From Acidobacteriota bacterium (lineage in GTDB: Bacteria; Acidobacteriota; Terriglobia; Terriglobales; Acidobacteriaceae), in the NCBI GenBank assembly GCA_013289795.1, contig JABCZH010000005.1, positions 124,001 to 188,000 of the forward strand: a stretch of 64,000 nucleotides of DNA, in the 5' to 3' direction. The position numbers were made by a program, and so were the translations under genes. Position 1 is the stretch's first letter. The number at the start of each line of letters is the position of its first letter. This document shows, one piece after another, positions 2,625-58,494 of this stretch. The notes below the pieces were generated by a model. That model was given only the letters and a program-made list of their open reading frames with translations, had not been told where the DNA came from and searched no databases.

Positions 2625-2832
2625 GTTCGCGCACCCTCGTCAGCACTGATGAGGAGGGAAGCGGGTGAGAATCCCGCGCTGCCGCGCAACTGTAAGCGAG
2701 GAAATGGCAGCCAGTCACTGGGGAAATCCCTGGGAAGGCTGGTTGCGATTGCCGGATTGAAATGTCGACGGGGCAAGAAGGCCCGACGGACGATTCATCC
2801 TAACTCGCCAAGCCAGGAGATCGGCGCGAACC
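2625..2832 (+). promoter_or_regulatory. Cobalamin (adenosylcobalamin) riboswitch
   Basis: The region contains the conserved cobalamin riboswitch core: GGGAA at about 2656, GGTGAGAATCC at about 2664, GCTG and CGCAACTGTAA at about 2679-2694, GCCAGTCAC at about 2710 and AGCCAGGAGATC at about 2811. A perfect nine-pair P1 stem closes it: 2625-2633 with 2824-2832. It lies 40 bases before the start of the BtuB-like receptor and should lower that gene's expression when cobalamin is plentiful, probably by masking the ribosome binding site, because I see no intrinsic terminator between them. Confidence 0.93.
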
Positions 2833-2871
2833 GCCAACACCAACCCCTTTCGCGTGATAAAGGAGGAGTGC

Positions 2872-5073
2872 ATGCGTTCTCGTCGGGTTCTTGTCAGCGT
2901 TCTTACGTTTGTTGTTCTTGCCCCCGTGGTGGCCGCGTCTGCCGCCGAAATCAAAGTGAAAGTTGTTGACCCGCAATCGGCTGTAGTGGCCGGGGCGCAG
3001 GTCGAGCTGTTTGCCGCCGGCAGTGAGACTCCGGTGGCAGTTCAGGATTCTTCACCTGAAGGCACGGTAGTCTTTCGCAATGTCGGCTCGGGCGCTAATC
3101 GCCTGCGAATACTGGCGCCCGGCTTTGCTCCACAGGCCGTGGCTGCTTCCAGTGGAGAGATCACGGTCAGTCTGGCGCTAGCCACTGCGGCGGAGACGGT
3201 GGTTGTGACGGCGACCCGCGGCCCGGTTCCGAGCGAAGACGGCGGCGCCAGTGTGGCCACATTGAGCAGCCAACAACTACAAGTGATGAACCCAGTGGCG
3301 GCCGACGATGCTTTGCGATTTCTGCCCGGCGCAGTCGTTAATACTGCCGGGCAGCGGGGCGGACGGTCTTCCCTGTTCGTGCAGGGCGGCGATTCCACCT
3401 TTAACAGAGTGATCGTTGACGGGGTCAGCGTTGCGGAGCCGGGAGGAACTTTTGACTTTGGCACACTCCCTCTGAGCGAAGTGGATCGGGTGGAGTTCTT
3501 GAGAGGCGCGCAGAGCACGCTCTATGGTTCTGACGCGATGACCAGCGTCGTGCAGGTGTGGACACGCACGGGCAACACTCCGGTTCCGGAATTGCGTTTC
3601 GGCGCGGATGCCGGCAACTACGGAACGGAGAATGGCTATGCATCGCTTTCAGGCGCGAACGGACGCTTCGATTACGACATTTTCGGAAATCAGTTCAACA
3701 CCGCCGGCTCCGGCCCGAACGACGATTATTCAAACTTTCTGGTGGGTGTGAATGCGGGGGCGAAGCTGAACGAGTGGGCGGCCTTACGTTTACGGGCCCG
3801 ACACGACAACAACGTCAGCGGTGTTCAAGGGGAGTGGAATTTCAACGGCCAGCCGCTTTTGTCCCCCGATCTCGACCAGCGGGCGCGGGCGAACAACCTG
3901 TTCGCCAGCCTTGAGCTAACCATTACGGGGCCCTCGCGATGGACGCATCGCATTACCGGCTTCGAGGCCACGCTGGGAAGGGCTAACACCGATTTTGTTA
4001 CCGACCCGAATCGCATCACGCCGTTCGGCGAGGTCGACACTCCATTTGCAGAGTTTGCCCGCTTCAACCGGGCCGGATTCGATTATCAGGGCGATTATGT
4101 GGAACGCAGTTGGGCCCACACCACGTTTGGATATGAATTCGAAGACGAAAACGGCTCGGTGCGCGATACCATTCCTCCTCCTCCAACGATAGCTCACGGA
4201 TTGCGTCTGAACGACGCACTGTACGGGCAACAGGCGCTCACGCTAGGTAGGTTGAGCGTGGTGGCCGGAGTCCGCTTCGTCCACAACACGACTTTCGGCA
4301 ATGTTGGAGTTCCGCGAATCGCTTTGGGGCTGCAGGTTCTGCGGGGCGGCCAGATATTCTCCGGAACTCGCTTAAAGTTTTCTTATGCGACTGGGATCAA
4401 GGAGCCACGATTTGAAGAAACGTTCGGCAATGGTCCGTTTCAAATCCCCAACCCCAATCTGAAAGCAGAGAGAAACCGGGCTTTCGAGACCGGGTTTCAG
4501 CAGAACTTTTTTGCCGGCAAGGTGGTGTTGAACGCGACTTACTTTAACAACCTGTTCCACGACCAGATCGAATTCATCACTGTGAATCCGATGACATTTG
4601 TCGGACAGTACATCAACCTGGAGAAATCGCTGGCGCACGGTGCAGAGGTCGAGTTGCAGGCAAGGCTCAACTCCAAGCTGTCGTGGAACACGTCTTACAC
4701 GTACACCTCAACCCAGATTCTGGAAGCGCCGCCGGGCACGTCGGCGCCATTTGCTGCCGGCGACCCTTTGCTGCGGCGCCCGCGACACTCGGCCGCCAGC
4801 CTGTTGTCTTACCTGGGGAAACGCTGGGGAGCGAATCTGGGCGGAAGCTTTGTAGGCCGGCGGGAGGACTCGGACTTTTTCGGGTTCAATATCGATCATG
4901 CGCCCGGCTACGTGCTGGTGAATGCCGGCGGATGGTATGCCGTCAATTCCCGCATGACCGCGTACGTGAACCTGGAGAATATTCTCGACAAGCAGTACAA
5001 CGAGGTGGTGGGATATCCGGCGCTGGGAACCAATGTTCGAGCGGGGATGCGGTTCCGCATCGGAGGGGACTAA
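2872..5073 (+). CDS. btuB: TonB-dependent vitamin B12 receptor, BtuB-like
   Basis: A 733-residue outer-membrane receptor. A signal peptide (about residues 1-24) is followed by a carboxypeptidase-regulatory-like beta domain (about 25-105), which is an addition common in Bacteroidota and Acidobacteriota receptors. Then come the plug domain (starting near ETVVVTATRGP) and a 22-strand barrel whose last residues are MRFRIGGD. The cobalamin riboswitch directly upstream sets the likely substrate as cobalamin or a related corrinoid, moved with TonB energy. The start at 2872 was chosen because AAGGAGGA ends five bases upstream; an in-frame GTG at 2854 precedes the Shine-Dalgarno. No BtuCDF genes are in the window. 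Confidence 0.9.
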   Translation: MRSRRVLVSVLTFVVLAPVVAASAAEIKVKVVDPQSAVVAGAQVELFAAGSETPVAVQDSSPEGTVVFRNVGSGANRLRILAPGFAPQAVAASSGEITVSLALATAAETVVVTATRGPVPSEDGGASVATLSSQQLQVMNPVAADDALRFLPGAVVNTAGQRGGRSSLFVQGGDSTFNRVIVDGVSVAEPGGTFDFGTLPLSEVDRVEFLRGAQSTLYGSDAMTSVVQVWTRTGNTPVPELRFGADAGNYGTENGYASLSGANGRFDYDIFGNQFNTAGSGPNDDYSNFLVGVNAGAKLNEWAALRLRARHDNNVSGVQGEWNFNGQPLLSPDLDQRARANNLFASLELTITGPSRWTHRITGFEATLGRANTDFVTDPNRITPFGEVDTPFAEFARFNRAGFDYQGDYVERSWAHTTFGYEFEDENGSVRDTIPPPPTIAHGLRLNDALYGQQALTLGRLSVVAGVRFVHNTTFGNVGVPRIALGLQVLRGGQIFSGTRLKFSYATGIKEPRFEETFGNGPFQIPNPNLKAERNRAFETGFQQNFFAGKVVLNATYFNNLFHDQIEFITVNPMTFVGQYINLEKSLAHGAEVELQARLNSKLSWNTSYTYTSTQILEAPPGTSAPFAAGDPLLRRPRHSAASLLSYLGKRWGANLGGSFVGRREDSDFFGFNIDHAPGYVLVNAGGWYAVNSRMTAYVNLENILDKQYNEVVGYPALGTNVRAGMRFRIGGD

Positions 5074-25608: not shown

Positions 25609-26481
25609 TTAGGGCGCGATAACCCGGATCGCCCCTGAAGTCACGCTCACTTCAATCGGTGTCTTACAGACGTATTCGCCGTCGGCGTAGACATCGACCG
25701 GATAGTCGGTTTCGATCCGCAGACGTGCGGCTTGAAGATATTCCACTTCCGGCATGCGCAGATGTTTACCGAAATAGATGGTCGGGAAGAGGCAGAAGAG
25801 TTTGAATGGGTCGATGTCGCTGATGATGCAGAGATCGAGTTGACCATCGTCGAGCCGAGCTTGGGGCGCGATTTTCATACCGCTGCCGTAGGTGGGTGCG
25901 TTGGCAAAGGCTGCGACCAGGGTGGGTTGGTTGCTGTGCGGGACGAAAGTCTTGGGGTCGCCGGGGGAAGGCAGGCTGATCTTCATCGGAAGGGCTGCAC
26001 AATGAAAAAGTGCGGGAGCGAGGCTGAGCACGTATCCACCGTGGGCCCGCAGCCAGCGCGGCAGCCGATTTGCGCGGCTGGCGACTTCGGCATCAAGGCC
26101 GACTCCTCCGACGCAGCAGAAATAGTGTTCGCCAGGCGTGGGCTCTGACAGGGGAGTGATTATTCCAAGATCGATGGCGCGCACGTTGCTGCCGTCAGAT
26201 GTGAACCTCTTCCATGTTGCGAGCGCGGTCCTCGTGCTGCGCAGGCCGAGAGCGCGAGCAAAATCATTCCCGCTGCCACACGGAACGACAAGCACGGGCA
26301 GTTGCAGCCTGACTAGATCCGGCAAATGACGATGGACGGTGCCATCGCCGCCGAAGATGAGAATCGCGTCTGCCTGGCCCGGGGCTGGCACGCCGATCTG
26401 CCTCGTTGCACCCAAGATTCGTTGGAATGGCCGCAGGTTTTTCTCGGAGGCATTAGGCCCGAAGATAGCGGCGGCACGCAC
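25609..26481 (-). CDS. YegS/diacylglycerol-kinase-family lipid kinase
   Basis: A 290-residue protein of the DAGK_cat family that phosphorylates a lipid such as diacylglycerol, sphingoid base or phosphatidylglycerol. The ATP-binding GGDGTVHR (about residue 45) and the GSGNDFARALG segment (about 72) are intact. The carboxyl domain has DDGQLDLCIISD (about 210) and a beta end with VDVYADGEYVCKTPIEV (about 260). The GTG start has AGGT upstream. The exact lipid cannot be named. Confidence 0.83.
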   Translation of the reverse strand: MRAAAIFGPNASEKNLRPFQRILGATRQIGVPAPGQADAILIFGGDGTVHRHLPDLVRLQLPVLVVPCGSGNDFARALGLRSTRTALATWKRFTSDGSNVRAIDLGIITPLSEPTPGEHYFCCVGGVGLDAEVASRANRLPRWLRAHGGYVLSLAPALFHCAALPMKISLPSPGDPKTFVPHSNQPTLVAAFANAPTYGSGMKIAPQARLDDGQLDLCIISDIDPFKLFCLFPTIYFGKHLRMPEVEYLQAARLRIETDYPVDVYADGEYVCKTPIEVSVTSGAIRVIAP

Positions 26482-26509
26482 CTGGGGAATTTAAACACAC
26501 TCGCGTGGG

Positions 26510-26528
26510 GACAGCCGAGGCGGCTGTC
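26510..26528. repeat. GACAGCC/GGCTGTC intergenic hairpin
   Basis: A perfect seven-pair stem with a five-base GC-rich loop, placed just before the REP-like element. It has no T-run and is not an obvious terminator in either direction. It is probably a part of the compound repeat that fills this intergenic space. Confidence 0.5.
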
Positions 26529-26547
26529 GCCTTGTCATCTGAAGATC

Positions 26548-26690
26548 CGTATCAGGGCACGCCTTCAGGCGTGCCGCACATGGCCTTAATGATTCCTCGC
26601 GCCACCGGATCGCGGCGATCGCCAAGGGCGTGATCGCGTCTGCTCTGATCACGGACGTAGTGGCATGGCTGAAGCCATGCCCTGATACGG
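26548..26690. repeat. REP/BIME-like element, copy 1
   Basis: The ends are inverted copies of CGTATCAGGGC. Just inside each end is a hairpin: GGCACGCC-TTCA-GGCGTGCC on the left and GGCATGGC-TGAA-GCCATGCC on the right, with complementary tetraloops TTCA/TGAA. About 80 bases without an ORF lie between. The layout and an almost identical second copy at 58336-58494 show a mobile or amplified palindromic unit of REP/BIME type. It occupies the space between the tyrS stop and the lipid kinase start. Confidence 0.85.
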
Positions 26691-26707
26691 AGCGTGACGA
26701 GCTGCGC

Positions 26708-27961
26708 TCACCAGCTGACGATTGCGATTTTCAACTGCTTGCCAACCCTCAGCGGCAGCCTCATCGGGGGCGGCGCAGGCCACGTGAAGTAGGGTTCCTT
26801 CAGCACATGATCGCCGACCCTCACTGAGCCCTGCTTCAATTTTCTACCTGCATCGGTTGTGGAGGCCGCGAGCCCGCACCGAACCAAAAGGCGATCTGCC
26901 CTTACTGTTGCAGAGGGACCGTGGTCGGTATCAGCGACATACCCTCCGATCTCAGCGAGCGCAATGAGTATTTCTTCCGTATCTTCCGGAGCCTCGCCTT
27001 TCTGAAACTGTTTGGTCCAATCGTTTCCCGCCTTGGCCACAGCCTCCGGCGAGTGAAAGTCCGCTACAATTCGCCGAGCCAGGTCTTTCTTCGCCTGCAT
27101 GGGATGCACTTCGTGCTTCATCTCGTCGATTTCCGGGAGCTGTAGGTCAGTCAGCAGCTCATAGTATCGCCACATCATTTCGTCGGAGATCGACATGATC
27201 TTGCCGTACATTTCGAGCGGCGGCTCGTGGATGCCGACGGCGTTGCCCAGCGACTTCGACATCTTCTGCACGCCGTCGAGGCCTTCGAGGATCGGCGTGG
27301 TCAGCACGACTTGCGGCTCTTGCCCGTAGGCACGCTGCAGTTCGCGGCCTACCAGCAAATTGAATCTCTGATCGGTGCCGCCGAGTTCGACGTCGGCTTC
27401 GAGGGCGACGGAGTCGTATCCCTGGGCCAGCGGATAGAGCAGTTCGTGGACTGCGATCGGCTTCTCTTCCAGAAAACGCTTGTGGAAGTCCTCGCGCTCG
27501 AGCATCTGTGAGACCGTGTATTTGGCGGCTAGACGGATGAAGTCGTCGGCAGTAAATTTCGAGAACCAGCGGCGGTTGAAATCGATGACCGTCTTCTCCG
27601 GATCGAGAATCTTGAACACCTGGGCTTTGTAGGTCTCGGCGTTCTGCGCGATTTGCTCGGGAGAAAGCGGCGGTCGAGTGACGGAGCGGCCGGTGGGGTC
27701 ACCGATCATGCCAGTGAAATCGCCGATAAGAAAGATAACGGTGTGGCCGAGATCCTGAAAGTGCTTGAGTTTGCGCAGAACAACGGTATGGCCGAGATGA
27801 AGATCGGGAGCAGTCGGATCCATGCCGAGCTTGACACGCAGCGGCTTGCCGGAAGCGCGGGACTTTTCCAGTTTGGTCCGCAGGTCGGCTTCGCGGATTA
27901 TCTCCGAGGCGCCTTTCTTGATGTAGGCAAGCTGCTCGTCAACCGGTGCGAAGTTGGACAT
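26708..27961 (-). CDS. tyrS: Tyrosyl-tRNA synthetase
   Basis: This class I synthetase charges tRNA-Tyr. The 417-residue protein has the HIGH-type motif HLGH (about residue 55, [14 protein letters not shown]), the [14 protein letters not shown] segment (about 83), and KMSKS (KMSKSLGNA, about 234). The carboxyl part is an S4-type RNA-binding domain (about 350-417, [30 protein letters not shown]). The form is closer to the TyrZ branch than to E. coli TyrS. No Shine-Dalgarno is present; TAATGT on the minus strand ends seven bases before the ATG and would start RNA at the initiation codon. Confidence 0.95.
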
Positions 27962-48909: not shown

Positions 48910-49200
48910 GTGAAGGGTTTCTTATATTTCATTCCGTTCCTGGTAATCGCCTCCGTCGTCTACAAGCTGATTACTCGCATGGTAGAAGAGGCAAACAGAT
49001 GCCTTCCAGCGGCTGAACAATTCCAGATTCTCAAACGTGGCCGCAGCTACGACATTCAAGGCTGCCTGCAGCGGTTGCGACGAAAGCACCAGGAGTTATA
49101 CCCAACTAGTAGACTTGCACGTTGGGAAGGCATCTGCGAGTTGCTTGCCGCGGGATATTTCCTTCTTTTCGGGATTTGGGTGCTCTTCCTTTCGAAGTGA
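48910..49200 (+). CDS. Small two-span membrane protein, unknown
   Basis: A 96-residue protein with a helix at each end (about residues 3-20 and 76-93) and a charged cytoplasmic middle with two Cys (NRCLPAAEQF, QGCLQRLRRK). The GTG start has no strong Shine-Dalgarno. It follows coxD by 49 bases on the same strand and could be a distal member of the operon. I do not recognise a family. It is convergent with the formate dehydrogenase operon; the 61 bases between the stops contain no clear terminator. Confidence 0.5.
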   Translation: MKGFLYFIPFLVIASVVYKLITRMVEEANRCLPAAEQFQILKRGRSYDIQGCLQRLRRKHQELYPTSRLARWEGICELLAAGYFLLFGIWVLFLSK

Positions 49201-49261: not shown

Positions 49262-50206
49262 CTATTCTTCTTGCTTGCCGGCAGGCTGAATCTGCACAAA
49301 CTGCCAGCCGAAACGTCCTTTGATGCAAAGATTGCCGTGAGTCACGCTGTGATCAAGCGGTGAGGTCACGCGCACAATCTGGCCGTCCTGCTGGTGCACC
49401 GTGAGGTCGCAGCCGACTCCGCAATAGGGACAGATGGTGTCCGTCTGGGTCTGGCGGCGCTCGTCCCAGGTACCGGCCCGCCGCATGTCATATTCGCTCT
49501 TGAACATGAGCGCGCCGGTGGGGCAGACACCGATGCAGTTGCCGCAATAGACGCAAGCGGAATCGGGCAGGGGAGCGTCAAATTCGGTGGCGATGTGGGC
49601 TGAGAAACCACGTCCGGCTACCGCGATGGCAAAAGTATTTTGCGCGTCCACTCCGCAGGCTTCCACACACTTGTAGCAGAGGACGCACTTGGAGTAGTCG
49701 CGGACGTAGAGATCGTTGTCTATTTTCACCGGTTGGGCGACGGTGGCGGCAGCGGGACCGAAGCGCTCGGGATTTGCAGCGTAACGCTCGATGTACTCCT
49801 GCATTTCGGGAGCTGTGGAAAGGTCGACGGACGAAGCCAGAAATTCCAGCACCAGCCGCCGGCTCAGGCGGACGCGCTCAGAATCGGTTTTGATCGACAT
49901 GTTGGGTTCCACTTTGCGTGAGCAGGCAGGAACCAGCGTTCGCGAACCTTCCAACTCCACCACGCACACGCGGCAGACGTTGACAGGCGTGAGGCTTTCC
50001 AGGAAGCAGAGCGTCGGAGTGTCAATGCCGAGTTTCTTGGCAGCGTCGAGGATAGTGGAGCCCTCGGCCACTGAAACGGACTTGCCGTCGATCTTGAGCT
50101 CGATGGAGCGACGCCCGGGCTGAGGCGGGGCGTGCGGCACAGGGCCGCGCGGCAGAGGAATCGTAGGCTGGGGCGCGTCGAGCATTTCTGTTGAGTCTGT
50201 GCTCAC
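49262..50206 (-). CDS. Formate dehydrogenase FeS subunit: the detached amino-terminal half of FdhA
   Basis: A 314-residue FeS protein that equals the front part of a NAD-linked formate dehydrogenase alpha subunit. In order: a 2Fe-2S plant-ferredoxin-like domain (about residues 35-105, Cys in TLCFLE, VCRVCVV, PACSR), a NuoG-type linker (about 105-160) without the usual HxxxCxxCxxxxxC set, two 4Fe-4S clusters (CVLCYKCVEACG and CVYCGNCIGVCP, about 175-230), and the Fe4S4 domain of molybdopterin enzymes (CPYCGVGC and GNLCIKGRFG, about 255-305). The protein stops just where the Mo domain should continue. The GTG start overlaps the stop of the NuoEF gene; GGAG is nine bases upstream. An ATG at 50221 is an alternative. 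Confidence 0.86.
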   Translation of the reverse strand: MSTDSTEMLDAPQPTIPLPRGPVPHAPPQPGRRSIELKIDGKSVSVAEGSTILDAAKKLGIDTPTLCFLESLTPVNVCRVCVVELEGSRTLVPACSRKVEPNMSIKTDSERVRLSRRLVLEFLASSVDLSTAPEMQEYIERYAANPERFGPAAATVAQPVKIDNDLYVRDYSKCVLCYKCVEACGVDAQNTFAIAVAGRGFSAHIATEFDAPLPDSACVYCGNCIGVCPTGALMFKSEYDMRRAGTWDERRQTQTDTICPYCGVGCDLTVHQQDGQIVRVTSPLDHSVTHGNLCIKGRFGWQFVQIQPAGKQEE

Positions 50207-57059: not shown

Positions 57060-57161
57060 CCTAATGACAATAAACGGCTACTTGAAGTGTCGCCAAGAAG
57101 GCCCGGATTCTGGGACAATAGAGACACCGGGGGCCAATCCCGCCCGGCAACCCAAGGCCAC

Positions 57162-58334
57162 ATGATCCAGGACAACGAATCCGCCGTCGCCGTTACCGAC
57201 CGTCAAGGTAGGGACGTACCCAGTTCCCTCCCCATGAAAGCGGGCTCCGTTGATTCCCTCCTGCACGGCTCGGTGCTGGTGTTAATCCAGTTCGATGTAT
57301 GCGAAGAAATTCGCCTGGATCAATTGCAGCAGATTTTTGGCGCTCGCACGCTGGAGCATCCCACGCTCAAACATCAGGCTCCGGGCTACGTTCGTTACGA
57401 ACGTCCTCCCGTCGTAGAGCCGATTGAGCCCCTGGTGCTGGAGAGTGGCGAAAGGCTGGTAGGCCAGATCAAGTACTACGACTACGGCGTAGTGAGCGTG
57501 GTGCTGGAACTGCCATTTTCCGGCGATTGGGACACGCTGGTCCGTTTGGGCGGCCGATGGGTCTGGGATGTGGATTTTTCGGCACACGCGTCCCACATCG
57601 CGCGCCAGAAGTTGGAGCGCGCGGCACCGGCGCTGGTGAAGCCCTACAAGGGATGGCTGAGCGAGGACTACTTTATTTTTCACGTGCGTGAGATGGCGGG
57701 ATCGCCATCGGCTGAGGAGCTCTGCAAGACGCAAGGCGCACACATTGCCCAGATCGTGCGTGGCGAGACGGCACAGCTTTCCGACGGCGAGCGCAACGAA
57801 ATTCTGCAATCGCGGATTTCATACTACCCCAATGATCTAGCGGTGATCGGCTGGAACGCGGCGTTTCTCTACGATACGGAGGCCGGTGCAGAGACAGCGA
57901 TCCAGTTGCTGGAGTACGCCAACTCGCAATTGCTGGAGTTCCGCCATTACGACGAATTGCTTACCCGCGAGCTGGCGATTGTTTACGCCTCGCTCGACGA
58001 GGGAACCGGAATTTTGGCGCGCTGGCGGTTGGCACGGGCCGCCACCAAACTGCATACCGTGCTGCTCGACGTCAACGAGCTCACCGAACATGCCGACAAT
58101 GCCATCAAGTTTCTGAGTGACATGTTCTCGGCCCGCCTGTACAAGCTGGCGGCAGCCAAGGTTGGCGTACCCGATTACAAAGACCTGGTCACGCAGAAAG
58201 TACAAACTGCCGAACAGCTTTATCGCTTCATGGTGGACCAGTTCAACCAGAGCCGGGCGTTCTTTCTGGAATTGACCGTGGTCGTTATTCTGGTCATTGA
58301 ACTGATTTATTTCTTCCGCGGCAAGCCGATCTAG
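57162..58334 (+). CDS. Tail-anchored RMD1/DUF155-like protein
   Basis: A 390-residue mostly soluble protein with one carboxyl-terminal membrane helix (about residues 365-385, ending YFFRGKPI). The amino part is alpha/beta with GQIKYYDYGVVSVVLELP (about 105). The carboxyl third is helical and contains LLEYANSQLLEFRHYDELLTREL (in parts), a layout like that of the eukaryotic RMD1/YagE proteins linked to mitochondrial or membrane roles. Homology is suggested, not proven. ATG at 57162 is preferred; 57087 (GTG-type) and 57238 are in frame. A GACAAT box at about 57115 could be its promoter. Confidence 0.6.
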   Translation: MIQDNESAVAVTDRQGRDVPSSLPMKAGSVDSLLHGSVLVLIQFDVCEEIRLDQLQQIFGARTLEHPTLKHQAPGYVRYERPPVVEPIEPLVLESGERLVGQIKYYDYGVVSVVLELPFSGDWDTLVRLGGRWVWDVDFSAHASHIARQKLERAAPALVKPYKGWLSEDYFIFHVREMAGSPSAEELCKTQGAHIAQIVRGETAQLSDGERNEILQSRISYYPNDLAVIGWNAAFLYDTEAGAETAIQLLEYANSQLLEFRHYDELLTRELAIVYASLDEGTGILARWRLARAATKLHTVLLDVNELTEHADNAIKFLSDMFSARLYKLAAAKVGVPDYKDLVTQKVQTAEQLYRFMVDQFNQSRAFFLELTVVVILVIELIYFFRGKPI

Positions 58335-58335
58335 T

Positions 58336-58494
58336 CGTATCAGGGCATGCCTTCAGGCATGCCATTTAATCCCGTCATTAATGCCAGGCGCCCATGAGGC
58401 TCAACTATGGTGTTTGCTGAAGGCAGCAGCCAGTTCGGCGCTGGTTCAACAAAACGAAAATTTTCGGCACGGCTGAAGCCGATGCCCTGATACG
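58336..58494. repeat. REP/BIME-like element, copy 2
   Basis: It has the same termini as copy 1, CGTATCAGGGC at the left and its complement at the right. The left hairpin is GGCATGCC-TTCA-GGCATGCC and the right GGCACGGC-TGAA-GCCGATGCC with a one-base bulge. About 100 unique bases lie between. It begins two bases after the stop of the tail-anchored protein and ends 22 bases before the SDR gene, overlapping its promoter region. Confidence 0.85.

Follow-up and report, generated by a model that had tools for sequence, protein, structure and literature searches.

An intergenic inverted repeat between tyrS and a lipid kinase gene as a probable REP doublet of an acidobacterial RAYT family

The stretch of DNA analysed here (64,000 nucleotides, hereafter the window; C5:124001-188000 in an assembly of 4.67 Mb and 33 contigs) carries between tyrS and a lipid kinase gene an element that is very probably a REP doublet of the REPIN/BIME type, that is, a non-autonomous element of an acidobacterial family of RAYT, a TnpA-REP-like HuH tyrosine transposase. 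The repeat from which it is built is a family of hairpins whose 5' tag is conserved and whose copies are scattered over this genome and the genomes of its relatives; the mobility of the units in the window we infer.

The unit at 26548-26690 is made of two arms in inverted order, with the tags outward, flanking an unrelated core (Table 1). In every arm the tag CGTATCAG leads directly into a stem of 8 bp that closes a TTCA loop. The original prediction had described inverted ends with TTCA-loop hairpins just inside them, an extent of 143 bases, a unique core, and a copy at 58336 alike in layout and ends and differing in its core. This description holds throughout. Exact CGTATCAGGGC sites lie at 26548 (+) and 26679 (-), and at 58336 (+) and 58484 (-) for the other copy. 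The same pattern at up to two mismatches has 22 matches in the window for 17.1 expected, so only the exact sites are informative. The inverted arms, of 30 nt each, span 26546-26575 and 26662-26691, with 87% complementarity and 86 nt between them, which puts the predicted extent right to within 2 bases. The stems of the two arms differ in sequence (GGCACGCC vs GGCATGGC) and pairing is intact in both, a point absent from the original prediction. When folded as single-stranded DNA, the units at 26548 and 58336 have z-scores of -5.02 and -4.98, and none of 200 shuffles was as good in either case. Rfam models at the gathering score gave no match at the 26548-26690 element; elsewhere in the window they identify a cobalamin riboswitch (RF00174, 2612-2843, 79.6 bits).

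Table 1. Features of the two repeat units and of the tyrS-kinase junction, in window positions.
Feature	Position	Strand	Remarks
Lipid kinase (YegS/diacylglycerol-kinase type), downstream gene of the junction	25609..26481	-	
Separate hairpin GGGGACAGCCG/CGGCTGTCGCC, between the 26548 unit and the lipid kinase	26507..26531		
Left REP arm, 26548 unit	26548..26577	+	tag CGTATCAG, stem GGCACGCC/GGCGTGCC, loop TTCA; covariance model 51.9 bits
Core, 26548 unit	26578..26659		genome matches elsewhere only up to 10 bases next to an arm
Right REP arm, 26548 unit	26660..26689	-	tag CGTATCAG, stem GGCATGGC/GCCATGCC, loop TTCA; tyrS stop codon 18 bases away
tyrS (tRNA-synt_1b), upstream gene of the junction	26708..27961	-	
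Left REP arm, second unit	58336..58365	+	begins one base past the stop of the gene upstream (57087-58334)
Right REP arm, second unit	58464..58494	-	stem with a one-base bulge

The region 58336-58494 is a second inverted pair with the layout of the first. We built a covariance model from 69 distinct repeats, the four window arms among them, and it scores these arms at 51.9, 49.2, 46.6, and 40.6 bits; among the other full-length matches in the window the best reaches 14.9 bits and is, on inspection, without such a hairpin. The cores of the two units are as different as shuffled sequences: global identity is 51%, for a shuffle mean of 50%, and the best local alignment in one orientation (score 12) is equalled by 813 of 1,000 shuffles. 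Homology through a 12-base stretch in the other orientation (score 19) was considered and rejected, since 19 of 1,000 shuffles reach that score.

The family extends well beyond the window. We found 16 exact CGTATCAGGGC sites in the genome, and three for the reversed control pattern. Fifteen of the 16 are of the hairpin type: 13 have at least seven of the eight stem pairs, one is bulged, and one is half-broken; the last site (C2:357137) has no hairpin. Degenerate repeats add five, for a total of 20 copies, which is a low number for a REP family in 4.67 Mb. The Y1_Tnp match at C5:60475 has one of these degenerate repeats (locus L043) about 1 kb away. Three of the 22 candidate rows (C2:357116, C5:182484, and C12:111801) were set aside as non-repeats. 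A blastn search of the genome with a 161-bp query gave 24 matches, and the 23 others cover one arm and no more than 10 further bases. The two window units lie between genes. According to a crude ORF caller, so do 10 of the 14 copies outside the RAYT cluster, the other four being in ORFs of uncertain reality or start. The repeats at C6:138356 and C6:139376 (L012, L013) are 1 kb apart and the 30 bases that precede them are near-identical (AGAAACTAGAAACCGGACGC..), a larger duplication. Six of the 20 copies form three tags-outward pairs, namely the two window units and C3:309171/309287, whose right arm is degenerate; five surround the RAYT gene, and about nine are single in a search for neighbours within about 400 bp.

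This RAYT gene is on the same contig as the window (C5:49108-49629, minus strand) and encodes a protein of 173 aa; the genome has six Y1_Tnp matches. CGTATCAG-type repeats stand on one side of the gene at 48990 (-), 49052 (+), and 49091 (+), the last overlapping its stop codon, and on the other side at 49742 (-) and 49793 (+). The predicted association of the palindromes with a RAYT is supported by a RAYT gene lying between the same repeats. The protein matches the NCBIfam model of REP-associated tyrosine transposases (NF047646) with 88.8 bits for a cut-off of 80, and Pfam Y1_Tnp with 42.6 bits for a cut-off of 23; its best match by sequence among solved structures is TnpA-REP (PDB 4er8, E=1.3e-5). 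It has the HuH motif as DHFH, the WQ motif, and the catalytic tyrosine in YIRDSP. A serine aligns with position 119 of 4er8 (counted along the alignment), which is Asn119 in the TnpA-REP of E. coli and an asparagine in the other 46 of the 47 rows that, among 52 examined, yielded a Y motif. Relatives of this RAYT at 64% identity, such as those of L098 and L128, have the asparagine. A figure legend in PMC6006769 gives N119 as essential for transposition in vivo, and the RAYT of this genome, with its serine, may be inactive or impaired. PADLOC defence models gave no match to the RAYT.

Similar repeats occur in relatives. The degenerate pattern, at up to one mismatch, has matches in 21 of 61 genomes including that of the window, and the reversed control occurs once in each of three of the 61. 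The original prediction was to fall if the genome had no more than its two copies and relatives had none; neither is the case. The number of places is 19 in the window's genome and goes up to 93 in a genome of another family of the class (G051). An exact and longer pattern, searched in 396 genomes sampled evenly across the phylum, matched in six, all from the window's family. The covariance model matches in 57 of the 61 genomes at E<=0.01, with 33 matches in the window's genome; we did not use these counts for copy number because in the window the reverse strand of the palindromes also scored and hairpins with other tags are expected to match. A comparison of RAYT presence with copy number was dropped, because RAYT-like matches occur in 48 of the 61 genomes whatever the tag, and because one genome (G035) has 86 pattern matches and no RAYT match.

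We examined 19 units of G051, chosen as pairs in the degenerate-pattern search. Fifteen are long, at 161-171 bp, and their cores share 82-94% identity (mean 89%); four are short, at 132-135 bp, with cores 63-95% identical. The identity of the long cores suggests that doublets of the TATCAG family can multiply together with their core. The original prediction had taken the differing cores of the window units as the sign of a mobilised or amplified palindromic family. The family is there, but a differing core, taken alone, does not speak for amplification; the long units of G051, which look amplified, have similar cores. Inner inverted repeats of the GGCTTTAGCC type are visible within the G051 units, and those of loci L078-L096 are of the GGGCTTTAGCCCC / GGGGCTAAAGCCC type, nested inside the TATCAG ends; this inner motif is also found beside repeats near the RAYT of the window's genome and near L190. 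G051, the genome with the most pattern matches, also has a short RAYT piece adjoining a TATCAG repeat (L201, G051:C64:24646-24780).

The window units could have another origin, which we consider rather unlikely: their two arms might be independent insertions of single REPs, or products of local rearrangement, and not one moved doublet. The arms within a unit do have different, self-consistent stems, the window cores are related neither to one another nor to those of G051 (best identities 56% and 52%, when the shuffled mean of the window-core pair is 50%), and nine of the approximately 20 copies in the genome are single. However, all three pairs away from the RAYT cluster have their tags outward and span about 143-159 bp. 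Random placement of 19 sites gives a mean of 0.004 tags-outward pairs, and in none of 20,000 trials as many as two. In addition, all 19 units of G051 are tags-outward, and their similar cores support the movement of doublets as units in this family. Since the two window cores are unrelated, the window copies themselves give no support to movement as one unit; the unrelated cores fit doublets that are old, decayed, or independently assembled.

We compared the gene junctions that house the two units with those of relatives. A search for the kinase gave 30 loci. Besides the window's own, 13 have tyrS upstream on the same strand, 15 have no tyrS in reach, and one has a different arrangement. In 10 of the 13 relatives a spacer alone separates tyrS and the kinase, and in seven this gap is a bare 4-73 bp; it is 226 bp in the window. 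Allowing one mismatch in the CGTATCAG tag and requiring at least six stem pairs, we found the repeat at none of the 13 junctions. Two of them contain a RAYT gene with other hairpins: L163 (G022, gene 2663-3385), where the protein scores 89.7 bits with NF047646, and L176 (G007, gene 838-1290), where it scores 77.1 bits, just below the cut-off. Both are above the cut-off of Y1_Tnp. L176 has two hairpins with two to three tag mismatches and a full stem of different sequence. The same junction has other hairpins in L170, other reading frames in L172, and longer spacers in L178 and L181. Two other genera thus have RAYT genes with differing hairpin families between tyrS and the kinase, which looks like repeated targeting of the 3' end of tyrS; on inspection, the separate hairpin of the window (26507-26531) resembles those beside the RAYT of L163. 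At the second junction, the neighbouring short-chain dehydrogenase is kept in four of the relatives' 18 loci, with gaps of 137, 10, 102, and 41 bp (182 bp in the window), and the repeat is found in none of the four relatives that keep the gene order. Insertion of the window units is the simplest reading of these empty junctions, in a comparison with relatives of other genera whose target sites cannot be aligned; alternatively, the units may have been lost in all the compared relatives.

The junctions also bear on a role in RNA, in which the hairpins would be kept by selection on the transcript rather than by mobility, for example for protection of the 3' end of the tyrS mRNA or for attenuation ahead of the lipid kinase. 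The position of the units invites this idea: in each unit one arm follows a stop codon at a distance of 1 or 18 bases, in the gap between two genes of the same strand, and the RNA of 26480-26710 folds with a z-score of -4.9. We nevertheless find it improbable. A scan for intrinsic terminators and sigma-70 promoters at 26400-26800 gave no match, the relatives' junctions are often bare and always free of the repeat as defined above, and the same repeat also flanks RAYT genes.

What is conserved in the repeat family is the hairpin. Among the 69 distinct repeats, selected for at least six of eight stem pairs, 96.9% of the stem cells are paired. Changes on both sides of a pair are found in 84 cells, for 17.0 after shuffling (none of 500 shuffles as high), and seven of the eight stem pairs show compensatory change. 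The covariation score of the stem is 0.484, compared with 0.142 in shuffles and at most 0.083 when the stem is slid. GTATCAGG is invariant across the 69 repeats; GTATCAG itself was a condition of the search.

A scan of genome contigs with the RAYT of the window's genome gave 31 loci, of which 28 carry an acidobacterial title. The hairpin finder gave one or more hairpins within 700 bp of the RAYT for 27 of these 28; for relatives' loci the count was 21 of 24, within about 600 bp. Both figures are raw counts. L147 has no hairpin near its RAYT, and the sole hairpin of L145 is without the CTTYAG centre. At L129 (2007-3772) ten TATCAG hairpins of two main stem types surround one RAYT gene in alternating orientation. 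We gathered 79 rows to compare tags with transposases and kept 52. Among the 27 dropped, nine were removed by list as duplicates or weak partial matches (L189, L206, and L208 of these carry TATCAG tags), 14 had less than 37% identity, and four were shorter than 118 aa (L127, L130, and L201 of these carry TATCAG tags). In 44 of the 52 rows the RAYT has a hairpin tag of one of seven classes, which were defined after the tags had been seen; 11 of the 44 were classed by a single flank, the other being disregarded, and no row has two classes.

The type of tag follows the phylogeny of the RAYT. It changes nine times on the maximum-likelihood tree, where six is the least possible and the shuffled mean is 27.5 (none of 200 shuffles as low). 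The TATCAG class gathers 12 rows with a single change (none of 500 shuffles as low). Support for its branch is modest (76/62), and 82% of the bootstrap trees likewise give one change. The GAAGA, GAARG, and GGTGG classes are clustered too (none of 500 shuffles as low), AGGGG less strongly (6 of 500), and two small classes are not clustered on this tree (WAAG, 33 of 500; GGGAG, 500 of 500). Two rows are placed among the TATCAG ones: L190, to which the hairpin finder gave no class and which is, on inspection, flanked by TATCAG repeats, and L133, with the tag CGTAACAG by the same means. L154 has a long branch. Inverted ends and a non-coding core could also evoke a MITE whose terminal inverted repeats belong to an ordinary DDE transposon and have no relation to any RAYT, but this is hardly credible when each end is a complete hairpin with a one-sided tag, when such ends flank HuH transposases, and when the tag follows the RAYT clade.

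A REP doublet is a known kind of element, of which the one described here is a variant by its CGTATCAG tag. REPINs of Pseudomonas fluorescens SBW25 are described as REP doublets that form hairpins, with group-specific RAYTs and with singlets seen as remnants of doublets (PMC3116915). The window units resemble them in their two inverted REPs, less conserved spacer, extragenic position, and a RAYT proper to each group of repeats. They differ by a copy number of about 20, where PMC3116915 gives 560 doublets and clusters, by spacers whose sequence is not conserved from one window unit to the other, and by the tag. The closest published relatives are probably the TIRtrons or TIRYT known from T. saanensis, K. 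versatilis, A. capsulatum, and G. mallensis (PMC3733652). These are RAYT-like genes of Acidobacteria bordered by terminal inverted repeats, some of them self-complementary, and one set in Koribacter, that of ORF1552, belongs to a repeated family. The likeness lies in Y1 transposases with flanking inverted repeats, and we regard the window repeat as an example, defined by its sequence, of this acidobacterial world of TIR-flanked RAYTs, built as REP doublets.

Within the TnpA-REP classification, one near group is subclass 2.5, or group 3 of Bertels, with which the system shares the DH[LF]H and WQ motifs, a perfect stem, and a small loop (PMC6006769, PMC8266576). It departs from it in the Y motif, YIRDSP here and YI[VI]ANP in subclass 2.5, and in the foot, which is TATCAG here whereas subclass 2.5 REPs have GT[AG]G at the foot or 1-2 nt from it (PMC6006769). 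We accordingly rejected a canonical GTAG-type REP, as the foot is GTATCAG and no GT[AG]G (GTAG/GTGG) lies at the foot or 1-2 nt from it. Class 3 TnpA-Y1 (Planctomycetes/Acidobacteria) is likewise partly acidobacterial, with atypical hairpins that sometimes reach hundreds of copies, as in Solibacter (PMC6006769). It was rejected on its motifs, W[TA], Y....Q, and a CnGA foot in that source, in place of WQ and YIRDSP here. REPs in Acidobacteriota are not new as such, because three genomes of the phylum figure in a table of REP predictions (PMC12306157). Literature searches by family name, rather than by sequence, found no description of the CGTATCAG repeat in the portions of text they reached, and it may still be published.

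The way in which such doublets could spread is suggested by what has been described for related enzymes. TnpA-REP binds folded single-stranded REPs through the stem, the loop, and the 5' tag, in a strand-specific manner, and the tag may guide cleavage (PMC8266576). By analogy with the biochemistry of RAYTs and of IS200/IS605, the RAYT would recognise the folded hairpin and the 5' tag GTATCAG on single-stranded DNA, probably the lagging-strand template, cut next to the hairpin, and join the piece elsewhere. An inverted pair could thereby be transferred whole, in a single stretch of single-stranded DNA. The copies in the window were probably inserted at 3' ends of genes in the lineage of this genome. 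Within the tyrS-kinase transcript, the unit would form strong hairpins that are not intrinsic terminators. The window units are by now probably static relics, and they look old, because their cores are unrelated, their arms differ, many copies are single, and the RAYT has a serine at position 119.

A wider reading, to which we give about equal chances of being right or wrong, is that Acidobacteriota house the radiation of one RAYT lineage. Its 5' tag and its transposase would have diverged together, giving six or more specificities (GTATCAG, TTGAAAG, GTGGAAGA, GGGTGG(A), GTTAAG-like, and CAGGGG) around a mostly constant centre, CTTYAG, and GTGG and non-GTAG feet would make up one series. If this is true, the recognition of guide sequences by TnpA-REP could be tested by swapping natural pairs of tag and transposase. 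For its own genome the element is nothing unusual and is probably inactive. What was a small unexplained element between genes now has its place in the world of RAYTs and REPs, and with it comes a matched pair of transposase and repeat whose tag is unlike the GTAG needed by the TnpA-REP of E. coli. More broadly, tags and transposases that vary together provide a natural series for testing how RAYTs choose their hairpins.
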